From positions 1 through 34,008 of the forward strand of contig JACVJD010000027.1 of assembly GCA_015711825.1 (NCBI GenBank): 34,008 nucleotides of DNA, in the 5' to 3' direction. Shown here piece after piece: positions 2,095 to 11,287 of the stretch (position 1 is the first letter of the stretch; the number at the start of each line of letters is the position of its first letter). Under the pieces are notes generated by a model. It saw only the letters and a list, made by a program, of their open reading frames with translations, was not told the DNA's origin and did no database searches. This DNA is from Candidatus Solincola daggyaiensis. Its GTDB lineage: Bacteria; Actinomycetota; Geothermincolia; Geothermincolales; RBG-13-55-18. A program made the translations under genes and the position numbers.

Positions 2095-2742
<648 letters not shown>

Positions 2743-3034: not shown

Positions 3035-3970
3035 ATGGTGGAGCGGCGCCACCTACTGGATGTCGACGACCTTGACCGTGAGGGCATAGAGAGAATACTG
3101 GATATGGCGCGTTCCTTCGCTGAGGTGCAACGGCGCCCCATAAAGAAGGTGCCCTCCCTGCGAGGCAAGACGGTGGCTAACCTTTTCTACGAGCCCTCCA
3201 CGCGCACGCGTTTGTCATTTGAGCTTGCAGCCAAGCGCCTGAGCGCTGACGTGCTCAACTTCACCGCCTCCGCTTCCAGCGTTCAGAAGGGGGAGAGCCT
3301 CAAGGACACGGCCCTCACCCTGGAGGCCATGGGGGTCGACGCGGTGGTGGTGAGGCACCCCGTCGCGGGTACCCCCTGGCTGTTGCGTAAATGGATAAAC
3401 GCCACCATTCTCAACGCCGGGGACGGCATGCACGCCCATCCCACCCAGGCCCTGCTGGACCTCTTCACCATGCGTGAAAGGATGGGCAACCTGGAAGGCA
3501 AGACCATAGCCTTCGTGGGCGACATCCTGCATTCGCGGGTGGCGCGTTCCGGGATGAAGGCCTGCCGCTTCATGGGCATGGAGGTGCTGGCGGTAGCGCC
3601 ACCCACCTTGCTGCCGCCTGTCGCCATGGAGGGAGTGGAATTCACTTGCGATTTCGATGCGGCGCTACCGCGATGCGACGTCATCTATATGCTTCGTATG
3701 CAAAAAGAGAGGCAGCAAGAGGGAAGGGTGCCCTCCATAGAGGAGTATGTCAGGTTCTACCAGATCGACGCCGGAAGGATGGGAAGGGCGCGCCCTGGAG
3801 CGATGGTGATGCATCCCGGTCCCATGAACAGGGGCGTGGAGATATCGAGCGAGGTCGCCGACGCGCCGTATGCGGTGATGACCGCCCAGGTGGCCTCGGG
3901 GGTGGCGGTACGTATGGCGGCCCTTTTCACCCTCCTGGGCGGCGCGGAAGGGGGCGATGGGATTGCCTGA
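3035..3970 (+). CDS. pyrB: Aspartate carbamoyltransferase catalytic subunit
   Basis: PyrB joins carbamoyl phosphate and aspartate to carbamoyl aspartate, the first committed step of pyrimidine synthesis. The 311-residue length is standard. The carbamoyl-phosphate motif STRTR is at about residues 55-59, HPTQ at 135-138, and the aspartate-binding region contains HPGPMNRGVE near residue 263. The ATG follows a GAGGTGAGG ribosome site. No regulatory PyrI gene is present, as in most Gram-positive bacteria. The 3' end overlaps pyrC by 14 bases, implying translational coupling. Confidence 0.97.
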   Translation: MVERRHLLDVDDLDREGIERILDMARSFAEVQRRPIKKVPSLRGKTVANLFYEPSTRTRLSFELAAKRLSADVLNFTASASSVQKGESLKDTALTLEAMGVDAVVVRHPVAGTPWLLRKWINATILNAGDGMHAHPTQALLDLFTMRERMGNLEGKTIAFVGDILHSRVARSGMKACRFMGMEVLAVAPPTLLPPVAMEGVEFTCDFDAALPRCDVIYMLRMQKERQQEGRVPSIEEYVRFYQIDAGRMGRARPGAMVMHPGPMNRGVEISSEVADAPYAVMTAQVASGVAVRMAALFTLLGGAEGGDGIA

Positions 3971-5273
3971 CCTGCTCATCGCCGCAGCCAGGGTGGTGGA
4001 TCCCTTCAACGGCATCGACGAGATCGCCGATGTGCTGATCTCCAGGGGTCGCATAGCGAAAGTGGGAAGAGGCCTGAGCCGGGATGGCAAAGAGGTCATC
4101 GAGGCGTCGGGCATGGTGCTTTCGCCGGGTTTCCTGGAACTGCACGCCCACCTCAGGGAGCCCGGTGACGAAGACGCCGAGACCCTGGAGACGGGACTGG
4201 CGTCTGCCTTGCGGGGAGGGTACACCGCGGTTTGTTGCATGCCTAATACCCGCCCTCCCCTCGACAACCCCGCCGTGATCTCTGGGCTATGGGCCAGGGC
4301 GCGGGACATGGGGCTTGCGGACCTCTACGTTATCGGTTGCGTCACCAGGGGGAGGGAGGGGCGCGAGCTCTCCGATATGGCCATGATGAACGCTTGCGAG
4401 GCTCGCGTAAGGGCTTTTTCCGACGATGGCGCGGCTGTCGAGGACGCGGGCGTCATGCGGCTGGCGCTGCAATATGCCGCCGCTTTCGGAGGCTTGATCA
4501 TCTCCCACCCCGAGGACACGCGCTTATCGCGGGGTGGGCAGGTGAACGAGGGGGCGGTTTCCACCGCCCTCGGCTTGCGCGGCATTCCCGCCCTGGCGGA
4601 GGAAGTGGTGGTGGCGAGGGATATCCTGCTGGCGGAGGAGACCGGTTGCCGCCTGCATCTGGCGCATCTCAGCACGGCGCGCTCGGTGAACATGGTGAGG
4701 GATGCCAAGGCGCGCGGGGTGAGGGTTACAGCCGAGGTGACCCCGCATCATTTAGTGCTGAACGAGAGCGATATACCCGGCTACGATACCTCGTACAAGA
4801 TGAACCCACCGTTGAGGACCCCGGAAGACGTTGCGGCCTTGCGGGAGGGATTGCGCGACGGCACCATCGACGCCATAGCCACCGATCACGCGCCCCACCG
4901 GTGCGAAGACAAGGAAAAGGAGTTCGATCATGCGCCCTTCGGCGTCGTGGGCATGGAGAGCGCGTTCCCGGTGCTTTTTCGAGAGCTGGTGGAGAGCGAC
5001 GAGATACCTCTAGAGCGGCTTCTGGGGGCGTTGACCCGGGGTCCTGCCGAGGTGATGGACCTGAGGCCACCTGAGTATGGGGCCGGCATCGTGGTGGGCG
5101 CAAGGGCGGACATGGTCCTTTTGAATTTGGAGGAGGAATGGATCATGGACGCGTCGCGCTTCGTATCCAAGGGCAGGAACTGCCCCTTTCACGGAAGATC
5201 GGTAAAGGGAAGGGTGGCGTACACGGTCAAGAACGGCAGGGTGGTCTACGCGCACGAGGACGGGAGGGGATGA
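3957..5273 (+). CDS. pyrC: Dihydroorotase
   Basis: PyrC cyclises carbamoyl aspartate to dihydroorotate. The 438-residue amidohydrolase shows the metal-binding HAH (H63, H65) followed by LREPG, an FSDDG segment near D156, ISHPED with H184, AHLS with H237, and ATDHAPH with D310. This is the class I arrangement (Bacillus/Aquifex type). The aspartate usually preceding the HxH motif is a glutamate here (ELHAH), a mild substitution. It overlaps pyrB by 14 bases and is followed one base later by the CarB-like gene, so the three are probably made together. Some class I enzymes work in a complex with PyrB, which would fit the overlap. Confidence 0.96.
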   Translation: MGLPDLLIAAARVVDPFNGIDEIADVLISRGRIAKVGRGLSRDGKEVIEASGMVLSPGFLELHAHLREPGDEDAETLETGLASALRGGYTAVCCMPNTRPPLDNPAVISGLWARARDMGLADLYVIGCVTRGREGRELSDMAMMNACEARVRAFSDDGAAVEDAGVMRLALQYAAAFGGLIISHPEDTRLSRGGQVNEGAVSTALGLRGIPALAEEVVVARDILLAEETGCRLHLAHLSTARSVNMVRDAKARGVRVTAEVTPHHLVLNESDIPGYDTSYKMNPPLRTPEDVAALREGLRDGTIDAIATDHAPHRCEDKEKEFDHAPFGVVGMESAFPVLFRELVESDEIPLERLLGALTRGPAEVMDLRPPEYGAGIVVGARADMVLLNLEEEWIMDASRFVSKGRNCPFHGRSVKGRVAYTVKNGRVVYAHEDGRG

Positions 5274-5274
5274 T

Positions 5275-8139
5275 ATGGCGGGGGGCGATTCCGTCGCTTT
5301 GGTGTTGGGGCCGGGCGCGGCGGCGTCTTCGCATGGGGGATGGCGAAGGTGGCAGGCAGCGCGCCTTTGCGCCTCTTTGAGGAGCATGGGGATCAAGGTC
5401 CTGGCGTTGGATGATGATCCCTGCACCCTTATGGATATGGGCGCGGCGAAGGATGACCTCTACATAGAACCGCCTCTACCGGAGGTGGTAGAGGTCATCG
5501 TCAGAAGGCGCGGGGTGACCTCTATCTGGTATGGCGTGGGAGGAAGGCGCGCGGGAGCCCTGGCGGCCAGGATGAGCGCCCGGGGCATGCACCAACGCCT
5601 AGGGGTGACCACGCCCGACTGGGATGACCGCGCCTGGTGGACCTGCGGGGACCGGTCCCTTTTACGCGAGGCCCTGGAGAACGCGGGCATCGCGAATCCG
5701 CGCTCCTATGCGGTGCGTCACGTGGGAGAAGGGCAGGCGGCGGCTGATCGTCTCGGTTTTCCCCTCGTTGCAAGGCCGCATTTCTCCACCGGGGCGCGCG
5801 GGGCGGGCATTGCGTACAACCGCGAGGATTACCTGGGTTTGCTGGAAGAGGCGATGCGCGAGAGCCTCACCGGGGAGGCTTTGGTAGAGGAATACTTGGA
5901 GGGGTGGAGCAAGTACGTTGTGGTCGCCATGCGTGACGCGTTCGGCGATTCTTGCGCGGTGGGGATAGCGGAACAGTTATCCGCGTTGCTCAGACACGAG
6001 GGCGACGCCTTGCTCATGACCCCTCCGAGGTGCGCGGGCAGCGAATCTGCCTACGCCCTGGAGGAGATGGCGCTGCGCGTCGCGGAGGTCGCCGGACTGA
6101 CGGGTGTATTCGAGGTGAAGCTGGCGGTTTCTCCCGCATGGGAGGAGATATACGTGGTGGACGTGAACCCCGTGTGCGGTGCCGGGTTGCCGTTACAGGA
6201 GATCCTCTCCGGAAGGGACCTGGTGCGCGCGCAGGCGATGATAGCAATGGGGCGGGAAGTGAAGCAGGTGTGGGGAAAGGGCGGCTACGGCGGGAAAAAA
6301 GCCTGCATCATGGCTTTGCCGTTAACCGACGAGGACAAAGCCGGCGAAGGAGAGGGCTATATATCGCTGGAATGCCGATCGCCTGCCTGGTGGGTGTCGT
6401 TGGCGGAAAGCCCCGCCGATGCTGCCGCCAAGGCCTTGCGCGATCTGCGAGAGATGGTGGAGCGAGGCAGTACGCGGGCCATGGACGAGTTTGCGCTGAG
6501 GCGGATTGAAGCGATTGCCTCCACAAAAACCCCCGGCAATAAAGACGAGAGCCGGGAACGGGGATCGACTCCTACATATTTCTGCCTTGCGCGCCCCACA
6601 CAGGGTGGTCTGGAGGACGGGTTGATGTTTCTAGGCGGCTCGCCCCGGGAGGAAGGAGGGCGTGAAAGGCAGGTGGCCTGCGCGCGTGCCATGTTGGCCG
6701 CGAAGGCAATGGGCTTTAAGGTCGCGCTCTATTCCCCGGACGCGGCCTTTGCCTTGCTCGGCGCCTCGCTGGCCGATGCGGTGTACCTTGGTGGGTTGGA
6801 GCCTGGAGCGGTCAAAGCGGCTGCCACGGGGCTGGGGATGAGGCGGATAGTGGCTCATTTCGGTGGAAGAGAAGCGGCGGAATGCGCCTTTGAAGCTGGC
6901 CGAAACGGCATTTCCGTGGCAGGAGTCGAAGATCTTGCGGACATGATGCAGCCCCATTTGGCGCTGGAGAGACTGAAGGCAGCGGGCATACCGGTGGTCG
7001 CGTTTCGCCTCGGCGGCGGCGAGGTGTGCGAGGCCTTGGACAACCTCGACTTCCCTCTGCATGCCGTGGCCATGGGGGATAAAAGGAGGGGTAGATGCGG
7101 GATCGCCTATACGCATGACGAGCTCCGAGGCCTGGCGGAGCGGTTGGGGGGAAGAGCGCTCTGGCGTCATTTGTGCGAGGAGGCGGGCGTGGTGCGCGTG
7201 GAGGCGGTGGGAGGGACAGAGGGTTGCGTGACCGCGCTGCTGTGGGAAAGCCTGCAATCAATAGGCAGTTCCGTCGCGGAGGGAATGGCGGTTTACCCTC
7301 CGGCCTCCCTGACATCGGAGCAGAAACGGCGTGTGGAGGAGCTCGCGCGCGCGGCAGTGAAGGCGCTGGGCTGGAAGGGTAACCTATCGCTGCGCGTGGT
7401 TCTCGACGATCAGGGAATGCAGATTTGGGGAGCGGAACCGACGGCATCCGAAGACCTTGCTTTCATGGAGACGGCGTCTATGATGCCTCTGTCGCGTCTA
7501 GGCGTCTGCGCTCTCTTGGGAGCGGGATGCGGGCACGAAGAGCTGGGTCCTACGAGGGTGACGGTGCGTCTTCCCTTTCCTCCGAGCGGCGGCCTGTCCG
7601 AAACGGATATCCTCCCATGCTCCTTGCGCCGATGCGAGGGCACGGTGATGGGGACGGCTAGCGATTTCGGAAAAGCTCTCAGTAAAACGCTTCTCAGCCT
7701 GGGCATGCGACCTCGCCCGGGGGGCAACGCACTGCTGAGCGTGGCAAACCGCGAGAAGCGCAAGGCGGTTCTGCTGGCAAGGGAATTGATGGAAGCAGGA
7801 TACCATATAATGGCAACGAGGGGTACAGCGCACACATTGAAGGCGGCGGGCATCGAGGTGAGGACGGTGAACAAGCTGCGTGAAGGACGGCCCAATATCC
7901 TCGATCACATCCGCAACGGGGAGGTGAGCCTGGTGGTCAACATCCCCAGGGGCAGATACCCCCATTGTGACGGCTTTTACATCCGGGACGCCGCCGTGCG
8001 TCACGGTGTGCCCTGCGTGACGGATATGGGGTCGGCCATGGCCTTGGTGATGGGGTTGAGATGCGATGCGGCGCTCGTCCTTGAGCCCAGGGATATGTCG
8101 GAGCAAATGCCCATGGACGTGAAAACCGGGGGTCGTTGA
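5275..8139 (+). CDS. Divergent CarB-like protein with intact MGS allosteric domain; probable pseudoenzyme
   Basis: The 954-residue protein follows the layout of carbamoyl phosphate synthase large chain (usually about 1,070), one base after pyrC. The first ATP-grasp half (about 115-330) is recognisable, with R167 and GIAYNRE. However, its metal-binding motif reads DVNPV (296-300) instead of ExNPR, and K282 replaces the usual glutamine. The part corresponding to the oligomerisation domain is shortened. The second half (about 445-800) is more degraded: AEPTA replaces VNPRA near 720-724, and the arginine before the glycine loop is missing (PLHAVAMG, 594-601). Both ATP sites therefore look impaired. 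The C-terminal MGS-like domain (about 818-930) is well kept: K828, ATRGTA (847-852), K867 and N889 correspond to UMP-binding residues of E. coli CarB. There are no stops or frameshifts over 2.9 kb, so it is not a decaying pseudogene. It may be a UMP-sensing partner or scaffold; carbamoyl phosphate synthase activity is doubtful. Confidence 0.8.
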   Translation: MAGGDSVALVLGPGAAASSHGGWRRWQAARLCASLRSMGIKVLALDDDPCTLMDMGAAKDDLYIEPPLPEVVEVIVRRRGVTSIWYGVGGRRAGALAARMSARGMHQRLGVTTPDWDDRAWWTCGDRSLLREALENAGIANPRSYAVRHVGEGQAAADRLGFPLVARPHFSTGARGAGIAYNREDYLGLLEEAMRESLTGEALVEEYLEGWSKYVVVAMRDAFGDSCAVGIAEQLSALLRHEGDALLMTPPRCAGSESAYALEEMALRVAEVAGLTGVFEVKLAVSPAWEEIYVVDVNPVCGAGLPLQEILSGRDLVRAQAMIAMGREVKQVWGKGGYGGKKACIMALPLTDEDKAGEGEGYISLECRSPAWWVSLAESPADAAAKALRDLREMVERGSTRAMDEFALRRIEAIASTKTPGNKDESRERGSTPTYFCLARPTQGGLEDGLMFLGGSPREEGGRERQVACARAMLAAKAMGFKVALYSPDAAFALLGASLADAVYLGGLEPGAVKAAATGLGMRRIVAHFGGREAAECAFEAGRNGISVAGVEDLADMMQPHLALERLKAAGIPVVAFRLGGGEVCEALDNLDFPLHAVAMGDKRRGRCGIAYTHDELRGLAERLGGRALWRHLCEEAGVVRVEAVGGTEGCVTALLWESLQSIGSSVAEGMAVYPPASLTSEQKRRVEELARAAVKALGWKGNLSLRVVLDDQGMQIWGAEPTASEDLAFMETASMMPLSRLGVCALLGAGCGHEELGPTRVTVRLPFPPSGGLSETDILPCSLRRCEGTVMGTASDFGKALSKTLLSLGMRPRPGGNALLSVANREKRKAVLLARELMEAGYHIMATRGTAHTLKAAGIEVRTVNKLREGRPNILDHIRNGEVSLVVNIPRGRYPHCDGFYIRDAAVRHGVPCVTDMGSAMALVMGLRCDAALVLEPRDMSEQMPMDVKTGGR

Positions 8140-8142
8140 AGG

Positions 8143-8916
8143 TTGCCGGCAGGATACACGGCGACGATAGCGGAGAGGAATTCTTTCGGTTGTTCCGTCG
8201 AGCTGGTCCTGGAAACGCCGAGGGGTTTCGAGGCTTCTCCGGGACAGTTCGTTCACGTGCTTTGCGGCGGAGACGGCCGCATTCTTCGCCGACCCTTCAG
8301 CGTATCGGTTTCGCATAACGGTGGCCTTGCCCTCCTGGTGCGACCTGTCGGCGAGGGGTCGAGGTGGCTATGCTCCAGGGAAGTGGGCGAAGAATTGGAC
8401 TTTTTAGGGCCCCTGGGGCGGGGTTTTAACATCAATGAGACCAGAGAAAACGTGCTGATAGCGGGAGGAGCGGGGATCGCGCCATTGCGCTTTTTGGCCA
8501 TGGAGATGCGTAAAAGAGGCCTGCGGACACTGCTTTGTTGGGGGATGGACGGGGGCGAAGACTTCGGTCGCCTTCCCGATATCATCGCAGAGGAAAGCGG
8601 TCTTTATGTCTCAACCCGGGATGGTAAGAGAGGTTTCAGGGGATCGGTGCTCGAATTGCTCGATGCCCTTGAGGTGGATCGCAACGCCGCCTTTTATGCC
8701 TGTGGGCCGCGTGAGATGCTCGCAGACTTGGTGAGAGGGCTTGGCGATGGCGAGCTCGAGAGAACGCAAGTGAGCGTGGAGGAGCGCATGGCATGTGGGG
8801 TGGGGGCATGCAGGGGATGCGCGGTGCCGTCTGCGCGGCCCGGCGCGCCTTATCTGACGGCCTGCAGGGAGGGGCCGGTTTTTTTCGCCCACGAGCTCGA
8901 CTGGGAAAGGATGTGA
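8143..8916 (+). CDS. pyrK: Dihydroorotate dehydrogenase electron transfer subunit
   Basis: PyrK carries electrons from the PyrD flavin through a [2Fe-2S] cluster and FAD to NAD+. The 257-residue protein shows the FAD-binding RRPFSVS (49-55), the nucleotide-binding GGAGIAP (108-114), a CGP motif (187-189) and four cluster cysteines, C218, C223, C226 and C241 (C-x4-C-x2-C-x14-C). It starts with TTG three bases after the CarB-like stop. Its presence means PyrD here is the NAD-dependent class 1B type. Unusually, pyrD does not follow directly but after a 399-base spacer. Confidence 0.95.
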   Translation: MPAGYTATIAERNSFGCSVELVLETPRGFEASPGQFVHVLCGGDGRILRRPFSVSVSHNGGLALLVRPVGEGSRWLCSREVGEELDFLGPLGRGFNINETRENVLIAGGAGIAPLRFLAMEMRKRGLRTLLCWGMDGGEDFGRLPDIIAEESGLYVSTRDGKRGFRGSVLELLDALEVDRNAAFYACGPREMLADLVRGLGDGELERTQVSVEERMACGVGACRGCAVPSARPGAPYLTACREGPVFFAHELDWERM

Positions 8917-9315: not shown

Positions 9316-10254
9316 ATGGGAACGGTACTACAAACGGAGGTAGCCGGCATAGGCATGAAAAACCCCGTGCTGGTATGTTCCGGCACCTGGGGAAACGGCA
9401 GGGAATACTCGGAATGGCTGGACCCGGGAGAACTCGGGGGGATAATCACCAAGTCGGTGACCTTGAAGCCTTGCGCGGGAAATCGTCCCCCGCGTTTATG
9501 GGAGACTCCGAGCGGCATGCTCAACTCCATAGGGCTTGAGAACCGAGGGCTGGAGGCGTTCCTGGAGGAGGAACTGCCGTGGCTTGCCGGGTTCGGCGTA
9601 CCGGTATGGGTGAACGTGGCCGGTTTCAGCGAGGAGGAATACGTGCAGGTGGCGACGGAGATCAGCGTTTCAGGCCTCGCCGCGGCTTTAGAGCTCAACA
9701 TCTCATGTCCCAATGTCAGAAAAGGCGGACTGCGGTTCTCGGAAAGCCTCGGCGACGCGGTTAGGCTGGTCGCCAGGGTGAGGGAGAAGGCCGAATTGCC
9801 CCTTTTCGTAAAGCTGTCGCCGCGCACCGCGGACATGAAGGCCATGTGCGTCGCCATGGCGGGAGCGGGCGCGGACGGCTTGAGCCTCGTGAACACCGTG
9901 CCCGCCATGGCCATAGACATTGAGAGGGCGAAACCGCGGTTGGGCAACGTCACCGGAGGCTTGTCGGGACCGGCGATACATCCCGTGGCGGTGCTCGCGG
10001 TATGGGAGGCGTACCAGAGCGTCGACATCCCCATCATCGGCATGGGAGGCATATGGGGCTGGGAGGATGCGGTGGAGATGATCATGGCGGGAGCCGGGGC
10101 GGTGGGGGTGGGGACCCTCAACTTCGTGGATCCTGGCGCGCCGCTGCGCATCGTCGAGGGAATAGAGAGGTTCCTGGCGCGCAAAGGGTTGGCCAGGGTG
10201 ACAGAGCTGGTGGGTCTGGCACACCGCGGCGGTTTCCCCGACCGCGCTTCTTAG
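9316..10254 (+). CDS. pyrD: Dihydroorotate dehydrogenase, class 1B catalytic subunit
   Basis: PyrD oxidises dihydroorotate to orotate with FMN. The 312 residues form a TIM-barrel of normal length. The active-site cysteine C131 lies in ELNISCPNV, which marks class 1B enzymes, and the barrel end has the phosphate-binding segment IIGMGGIWGWEDAVEMIMAGA. It pairs with PyrK just upstream. The ribosome site is weak (GGAAAGG about 13 bases before ATG). Near-identical class 1 folds exist in dihydropyrimidine dehydrogenase, but the setting makes PyrD nearly certain. Confidence 0.95.
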   Translation: MGTVLQTEVAGIGMKNPVLVCSGTWGNGREYSEWLDPGELGGIITKSVTLKPCAGNRPPRLWETPSGMLNSIGLENRGLEAFLEEELPWLAGFGVPVWVNVAGFSEEEYVQVATEISVSGLAAALELNISCPNVRKGGLRFSESLGDAVRLVARVREKAELPLFVKLSPRTADMKAMCVAMAGAGADGLSLVNTVPAMAIDIERAKPRLGNVTGGLSGPAIHPVAVLAVWEAYQSVDIPIIGMGGIWGWEDAVEMIMAGAGAVGVGTLNFVDPGAPLRIVEGIERFLARKGLARVTELVGLAHRGGFPDRAS

Positions 10255-10714
10255 GGCTCCGCCCTTGAGGGCTCGTTCCTCTTCCGTTGCCCAACCGTCG
10301 GCTCCGTGTGCTGGAGCGACATGCGCGGTGGGCTATCCTGCTCGCAAGCCGGCGTTGCTAGTATTTCCTACACCACGGCTAAGGCTTTTTATCACCATCG
10401 TTTTCCTCTCCATAGGAGGGCGGACGATTTCACGTATCTTGCGGAGCGGTAGCTCATATTGCAACAACACCGATACCGTATCCCTTATGCGGAAGTCTGG
10501 GGGGACGACCGCCAAGGGTATTACATCGGTTTTTACACCACCGCTGGTCGTTTTCTTACTCGTGCCTAGAGGCATGGACGTCGGGCATGGTTTATGATGG
10601 TTTTGGAAGAGGGTTTTCGGGAATAAGGGTTTTTAAGACATGCCGGAGGAGGGCGGACGCGGTAGGTTTCCGGTGCGAAAAGCGGACGGGTGACGTAAAT
10701 GGGGGTGAGTTGAC
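10255..10714 (+). other. 460-base lower-GC spacer between pyrD and pyrE
   Basis: No supported gene lies here, although pyrF often occupies this place. The GC content visibly drops and T-rich runs appear. One + frame would encode about 32 residues including AEVWGDDRQGYYIGFYTTAG (about 10470-10570), flanked by stops, with codon use unlike the neighbours. This could be a relic of inserted DNA or chance. A short GCCC-TTGA-GGGC hairpin follows the pyrD stop (10263-10274). The segment shows no orotidine-5'-phosphate decarboxylase motif. Confidence 0.35.
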
Positions 10715-11287
10715 ATGAATCCTGCAGAGGTGATGGAGATCTTCGAAAGAGAGGGGGCGGTGCAGAAGGGCCACTTCCTCCTCACCTCCGGGCTGCATAG
10801 CGATACCTATGTGCAGTGCGCCAAGGTGCTGCAATACCCTCATCTGGCGGAGAGCCTCGCGGGGGCCTTAGCGAAGGGTTTCGATGGCCGGGATATAGAC
10901 CTGGTGATAAGTCCGGCCTTGGGCGGCATCATCATCGGCTATATGGTGGCCCTGTCCCTGGGAAAGCGCATGGTGTTCGCCGAGCGCAAGGAGGGTAAGC
11001 TGGTGCTGCGCCGAGGGCAGTCCATACCCGCCGGAGCACGCGCCCTGGTGGTGGAGGACGTTATCACCACGGGGGGGTCCGTCAACGAGGTCATGGAGCT
11101 GTTGAAAGAGGCGGGGGCCGAGGTGCGAGGTTTGGGCGCGCTCATCGAACGCGGGGGGGACCGGGATTTCAACGTGCCTAAAAAAGTGCTCCTGCAGCTG
11201 GAGGCCAGGGCATGGGACCCGGCGGAATGTCCTTTATGCCGGGACGGGGTGGAGGTGGAAACGCCTGGAAGCAGGTACCTGGGCTAA
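10715..11287 (+). CDS. pyrE: Orotate phosphoribosyltransferase
   Basis: PyrE transfers orotate to PRPP, giving OMP. The 190-residue protein has the PRPP-binding loop ALVVEDVITTGGS (about 110-122), and KGHFLLTSGLHSDTYVQC near the N-terminus, as in the short thermophile/actinobacterial-type enzymes. A CPLC pair near residue 173 in the C-terminal tail is also seen in that subgroup. The ATG at 10715 sits behind GGGGGTGAG. It is the last pyr gene here; the OMP decarboxylase pyrF must lie elsewhere. Confidence 0.95.
   Translation: MNPAEVMEIFEREGAVQKGHFLLTSGLHSDTYVQCAKVLQYPHLAESLAGALAKGFDGRDIDLVISPALGGIIIGYMVALSLGKRMVFAERKEGKLVLRRGQSIPAGARALVVEDVITTGGSVNEVMELLKEAGAEVRGLGALIERGGDRDFNVPKKVLLQLEARAWDPAECPLCRDGVEVETPGSRYLG

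Follow-up and report, generated by a model that had tools for sequence, protein, structure and literature searches.

Carbamoyl phosphate synthetases (CPSases) of the fused CAD/Ura2 type sense nucleotides. In these proteins the CPSase is fused with aspartate carbamoyltransferase (ATCase) and dihydroorotase (DHOase) (PMC6022934). A dead enzyme in pyrimidine synthesis is already known, since the pDHO of Pseudomonas class A2 ATCase is a dihydroorotase relative that is needed for assembly and activity of the ATCase (PMC7053772). In E. coli CarB the residues T977, K993 and S948 have been tied by experiment to the response to UMP/IMP, and the protein forms dimers via its regulatory domains and tetramers via a domain that is absent from the protein described here (PMC6245113).

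We have analysed a window of 34,008 nucleotides (the whole stretch of DNA under study) from Candidatus Solincola daggyaiensis, which carries a divergent carB relative, here called carX, in its pyr operon. The carX product resembles E. coli CarB (PDB 1JDB, 1BXR and 1CE8) in its overall fold and in the UMP/IMP pocket of its MGS domain, and it shares its operon position with the CarB of related bacteria. Unlike E. coli CarB, to which it is 21-24% identical, it has a destroyed second site, an altered first site and no E892, and it lacks both the oligomerisation domain and an adjacent carA. Like pDHO, carX would be a dead relative of a pyrimidine-pathway enzyme that is kept in the same pathway; however, pDHO is a dihydroorotase relative with ATCase as its demonstrated partner, whereas carX is a CPSase relative with candidate partners only. 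As in CAD/Ura2, its CPSase module stands together with ATCase and DHOase, but the carX system consists of separate polypeptides and its dead module is the CPSase, while that of yeast Ura2 is the DHOase domain. No earlier report of a CPSase pseudoenzyme, or of a dead CPSase kept across an order, was found in the open-access full-text literature.

Domain layout and ligand sites of carX

The operon order is pyrR-pyrB-pyrC-carX-pyrK-pyrD-pyrE, followed by ihf, gmk and coaBC (Table 1). The initial annotation of the window had reported 954 codons inside the pyr operon without a stop or frameshift, and this was confirmed.

Table 1. Features of the carX locus, with positions in the window and carX residue numbers unless otherwise indicated.
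Feature	Position	Strand	Remark
PyrR-binding RNA element RF00515	2094..2184	+	upstream of operon
pyrR	2164..2742	+	ORF as listed; likely start ATG 2197
pyrB, aspartate carbamoyltransferase	3035..3970	+	
pyrC, dihydroorotase	3957..5273	+	
carX, putative pseudo-CarB, 954 aa	5275..8139	+	begins right after pyrC stop (5273); stop 4 nt before pyrK start
N-half: preATP-grasp and ATP-grasp, residues 1-392	5275..6450	+	
Altered first-half metal site: E280, K282, D296-V297-N298-P299-V300	6112..6174	+	E. coli N283, Q285 and ExNPR, respectively
Linker, residues 393-445	6451..6609	+	short and variable; replaces deleted CPSase_L_D3
C-half: degenerate second ATP-grasp, residues 446-805	6610..7689	+	from alignment and structure model
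GAEPT, residues 719-723	7429..7443	+	replaces second-half ExNPR
MGS-like allosteric domain, residues 806-930	7690..8064	+	
pyrK, dihydroorotate dehydrogenase electron-transfer subunit	8143..8916	+	
pyrD, dihydroorotate dehydrogenase	9316..10254	+	
pyrE, orotate phosphoribosyltransferase	10715..11287	+	

Pfam assigned a preATP-grasp domain, one ATP-grasp domain and an MGS domain (PF02142, 5.7e-22) to carX, and no oligomerisation domain. The latter, which lies between the ATP-grasp halves in E. coli (residues ~403-553), is absent from every carX copy that spans the region, and the sole PF02787 (CPSase_L_D3) match in the window genome is the canonical CarB on contig C30. The full CarB layout proposed in the initial annotation therefore holds for the two ATP-grasp halves and the MGS domain, but not for the oligomerisation domain that should link the halves. 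An AlphaFold2 model built on a 15-row alignment (pLDDT 81.7, pTM 0.87) had E. coli CarB as its best structural match (Foldseek E 1e-67), and VIA-align superposed the two with Z 32.7 and 3.8 Å over 935 residues. As modeled, both halves retain the CarB fold, as does the MGS domain, although a shared fold shows no function.

In the second half (E. coli numbering) none of R675, R715, H788, Q829, N843 and R845 is retained in any of the 13 rows that could be read, and E841 is mostly lost. Both the GAEPT segment and the missing RPS motif (R715 corresponds to V598 in carX) had been pointed out earlier and are real, and the second active site is, as judged from its residues, destroyed. A CarB has two intact ATP-grasp catalytic and metal sites, an MGS allosteric domain and a CarA encoded alongside; carX has the MGS domain, but one site is lost, the other is altered, and the only CarA of the genome adjoins the canonical carB on C30. 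That carX is still an active CPSase, or supplies one working half, is hardly credible: the CarB fold and the operon position would suit such a role, but the second site is destroyed in 13/13 rows, no carA is adjacent, and the scores against the CarB equivalog models are far below the cut-offs (252.7 vs 1027 bits for TIGR01369; 285.1 vs 599 bits for NF003671). Most likely, carX cannot make carbamoyl phosphate.

The first half presents a different picture. The equivalents of R129, R169 and H243 (carX R127, R167 and H241) are retained in 15/15 rows, and nearly every row also keeps the glycine loop. At the metal site, the changes from ExNPR to DVNPV (carX residues 296-300) and from the ligand Q285 to K282 were correctly read in the initial annotation. 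E215 and Q285 are both replaced by K in 13 rows, with E at both positions in two rows of family f3; N283 is replaced by E in all rows and E299 by D in 13, while the N301 equivalent varies across carX (N, D, F, H). The swaps at carX K213, E280, K282 and D296 (window 5911-6162) are identical in 13/13 members of family f1. At 22 positions of the N-half, residues that are invariant among the canonical CarBs examined are replaced in the carX of f1 by others that are likewise fixed, which argues for remodelling and not random decay. The strongest case for an additional function of carX comes from this altered first pocket.

Such a function could be catalytic, with the first ATP-grasp reprogrammed (E215K, N283E, Q285K, E299D) for another nucleotide or substrate and the MGS domain serving as its allosteric switch. 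We consider a new enzyme of this kind improbable. The retained arginines, histidine and glycine loop, together with four pocket positions bearing the same new residues in 13/13 family members, are what such an enzyme would display, but the metal-ligand set is broken, the N301 equivalent is not conserved, the sister family f3 has E and not K at 215 and 285, and no partner enzyme gene accompanies carX.

In the MGS domain K828, T848, T851, K867 and N889 are kept, as stated previously, and S822 (equivalent to S948) is present as well. Among the UMP/IMP-pocket residues, S948 and K954 are invariant in 13/13 rows, and T974, T977, K993 and N1015 in 14/14. Invariant columns amount to 41/125 in the MGS domain vs 34/392 in the N-half and 13/360 in the C-half. 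On the ornithine side T1042 is retained, but E892, an ornithine ligand, is lost in all 13 rows, and the ornithine site is broken. With the UMP/IMP pocket intact and E892 lost, carX could read a nucleotide signal, but probably not a signal from the arginine pathway.

Canonical carAB, distribution and history

The assembly of the window genome comprises 3.0 Mb in 190 contigs, with 95% completeness and 2.2% contamination. A second, canonical carA/carB, which the initial annotation had proposed to look for, is present. One end of contig C30 carries the N-half of a canonical CarB, adjoined by the CarA of the assembly, and one end of contig C121 carries the C-half with its MGS domain; the two pieces overlap by 33 residues, and the joined CarB of 1086 aa has all catalytic residues. 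In the genus mates the canonical CarB is a single ORF, about 92-93% identical to that of the window genome. Contamination or assembly error behind the split CarB was rejected, since the genus mates have this gene as a single ORF and the tree places the copy of the window genome among theirs. Likewise, carX is no assembly artefact, since it is intact in independent assemblies. In two genera the relocated carAB is adjoined by an ORF containing a glutamate-synthase domain, and a GAF-ANTAR protein is encoded nearby (L059 3557-5314; L062 10740-12311); these neighbours may hint at nitrogen-linked control.

Within the order carX was found in 15/18 genomes, in the slot between pyrC and pyrK wherever a contig spans both sides. 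The 13 full-length copies (7 genera, 2 families) are all open, with lengths of 945-1019 aa, and two further copies are truncated at contig ends. Chance is excluded by orthologues of the same layout that occupy this slot in 14 other genomes. Functional CPSases among close relatives with the same residues would have been at odds with the initial annotation; instead, the relatives show the same losses. Every genome of the order also yielded a canonical CarB, and the relatives' canonical carA-carB is located elsewhere where the region could be read, with 79-93% identity to that of the window genome. In other orders of the class, and in other classes, a canonical carA-carB occupies the pyrC-pyrK slot. 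Among the genomes of the phylum that were sampled (396 searched in all), no carX was found outside the order. A strong distant match in G133, a 1513-aa open frame, was rejected as a carX fusion, as it encodes a normal CarB in which every catalytic motif is present, preceded by a stretch in the same frame.

In one member of the order, from a third family (G015; L114, G015:C98), pyrC and pyrK lie ~130 bp apart with no car gene between them, which is a natural loss of carX. Two others (G004 and G008) also lack carX, but their assemblies are 78% and 62% complete and pyrC was not found at E <= 1e-60 either, so these absences are uninformative.

An AU test favoured neither a grouping of carX with the operon CarB of the class nor one with its relocated counterpart (p about 0.12 in either case, with long branches), and the case for vertical origin thus rests on synteny. 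Since outgroups have carA-carB in the slot and one relative has neither, carX most likely descends vertically from the carB native to the operon, of which it would be a stripped-down form. In the simplest history, a second carAB at another locus would have taken over carbamoyl phosphate synthesis, after which the operon carA would have been lost and the operon carB would either have become carX, by loss of carA, the oligomerisation domain and the second active site, or have vanished.

Selection on carX

Pairwise dN/dS values (NG86), which are rough because dS frequently approaches or exceeds 1, were 0.15-0.28 for the N-half of carX, 0.15-0.38 for the C-half and 0.02-0.21 for the MGS domain. 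Canonical CarB gave 0.03-0.16 (NG86), and the neighbour genes gave 0.07-0.18 (pyrB and pyrC) and 0.19-0.33 (pyrK); the values for the carX MGS domain are close both to those of the canonical MGS domain and to those of pyrB and pyrC. All three parts of carX are under purifying selection, the MGS domain most. The initial annotation had concluded that the sensor, but not catalysis, was preserved by selection, and had named dN/dS of the MGS domain in relatives as a test: the MGS domain is indeed the most constrained part, but the N-half is constrained as well. Given this constraint and pocket residues that are fixed and changed in charge, the N-half probably serves a separate function.

The carX branches in the tree are ~10x longer than those of canonical CarB, a faster evolution that also fits slow loss. 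It is nevertheless unlikely that carX is a dispensable relic whose frame is kept by residual folding constraint and operon context. Slow decay of this kind would agree with the long branches, with the upper dN/dS of the C-half and with the complete loss in G015, but not with 13/13 intact full-length copies, dN/dS far below 1 everywhere and similar to pyrK in the N-half, the many invariant MGS columns or the 22 fixed derived residues of the N-half.

Proposed role of carX

A regulatory pseudoenzyme such as pDHO has lost catalytic residues while its fold is conserved under purifying selection, has an active paralog in the same genome, and forms a complex with an active pathway enzyme that it affects. 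The first two features apply to carX, with the canonical carAB as the paralog, whose activity is predicted from its sequence; the third would be the proposed contact with PyrB-PyrC or CarAB. On balance, we judge that carX is probably a pseudoenzyme that has been retained, binds UMP/IMP and serves as a regulator or scaffold of either PyrB/PyrC or the active CarAB. As it lies among pyrB, pyrC, pyrK and pyrD and behind a PyrR element, carX is probably co-produced with PyrB, PyrC, PyrK and PyrD. UMP or IMP would bind in its MGS pocket, and the signal would be passed on by protein contact to a PyrB-PyrC complex, or to the canonical CarAB through MGS-MGS pairing. Pathway flux may in this manner be tied to the nucleotide pool. 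A passive scaffold would not account for everything, as suggested by a first pocket that is both constrained and altered in charge.

The dimerisation of E. coli CarB via its regulatory domains suggests that carX and canonical CarB could pair through their MGS domains. A specific form of such pairing, in which carX joins canonical CarA or CarB as a decoy or antagonist and, depending on UMP, reduces CPSase activity, is nonetheless very doubtful. It would be served by the well-preserved MGS domain, as CarB dimers in E. coli are built by MGS-MGS contacts, but carX has lost the oligomerisation domain, which in E. coli contacts CarA together with the carboxyphosphate domain (PMC6245113), and the canonical carAB pair lies at a distant locus.

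By analogy with the service of pDHO in Pseudomonas, and as no PyrI (the ATCase regulatory subunit) was found in the 13 genomes checked, the PyrB-PyrC assembly is the other candidate partner of the proposed regulatory pseudoenzyme. We tentatively suggest, as a possibility that falls well short of probable, that carX is a detached UMP/IMP-sensing regulatory subunit of PyrB-PyrC (ATCase-DHOase) in bacteria without PyrI. It would not be universally needed by PyrB/PyrC, since the operon of G015 runs without it. If the detached-sensor reading is true, allosteric control has been split from carbamoyl phosphate synthesis and moved one step downstream. The carX system makes such a split between sensing and catalysis in a CPSase directly testable, and could reveal how bacteria that lack PyrI control their pyrimidine flux. 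The comparison is unusually clean, with an active carAB in the outgroup slot, a dead carB in 15 genomes and a loss in one relative.

Two further features of the operon were observed. The RF00515 element ends ~12 nt 5' of the likely pyrR start, with GGGGGG in between (2094-2197), an arrangement that would suit PyrR acting as a translational repressor rather than by attenuation. The gap between pyrD and pyrE (10254-10715) is without pyrF in the window genome and its two genus mates; elsewhere in the family this gap does contain an OMP decarboxylase match, and the best such match of the window genome is on contig C147.
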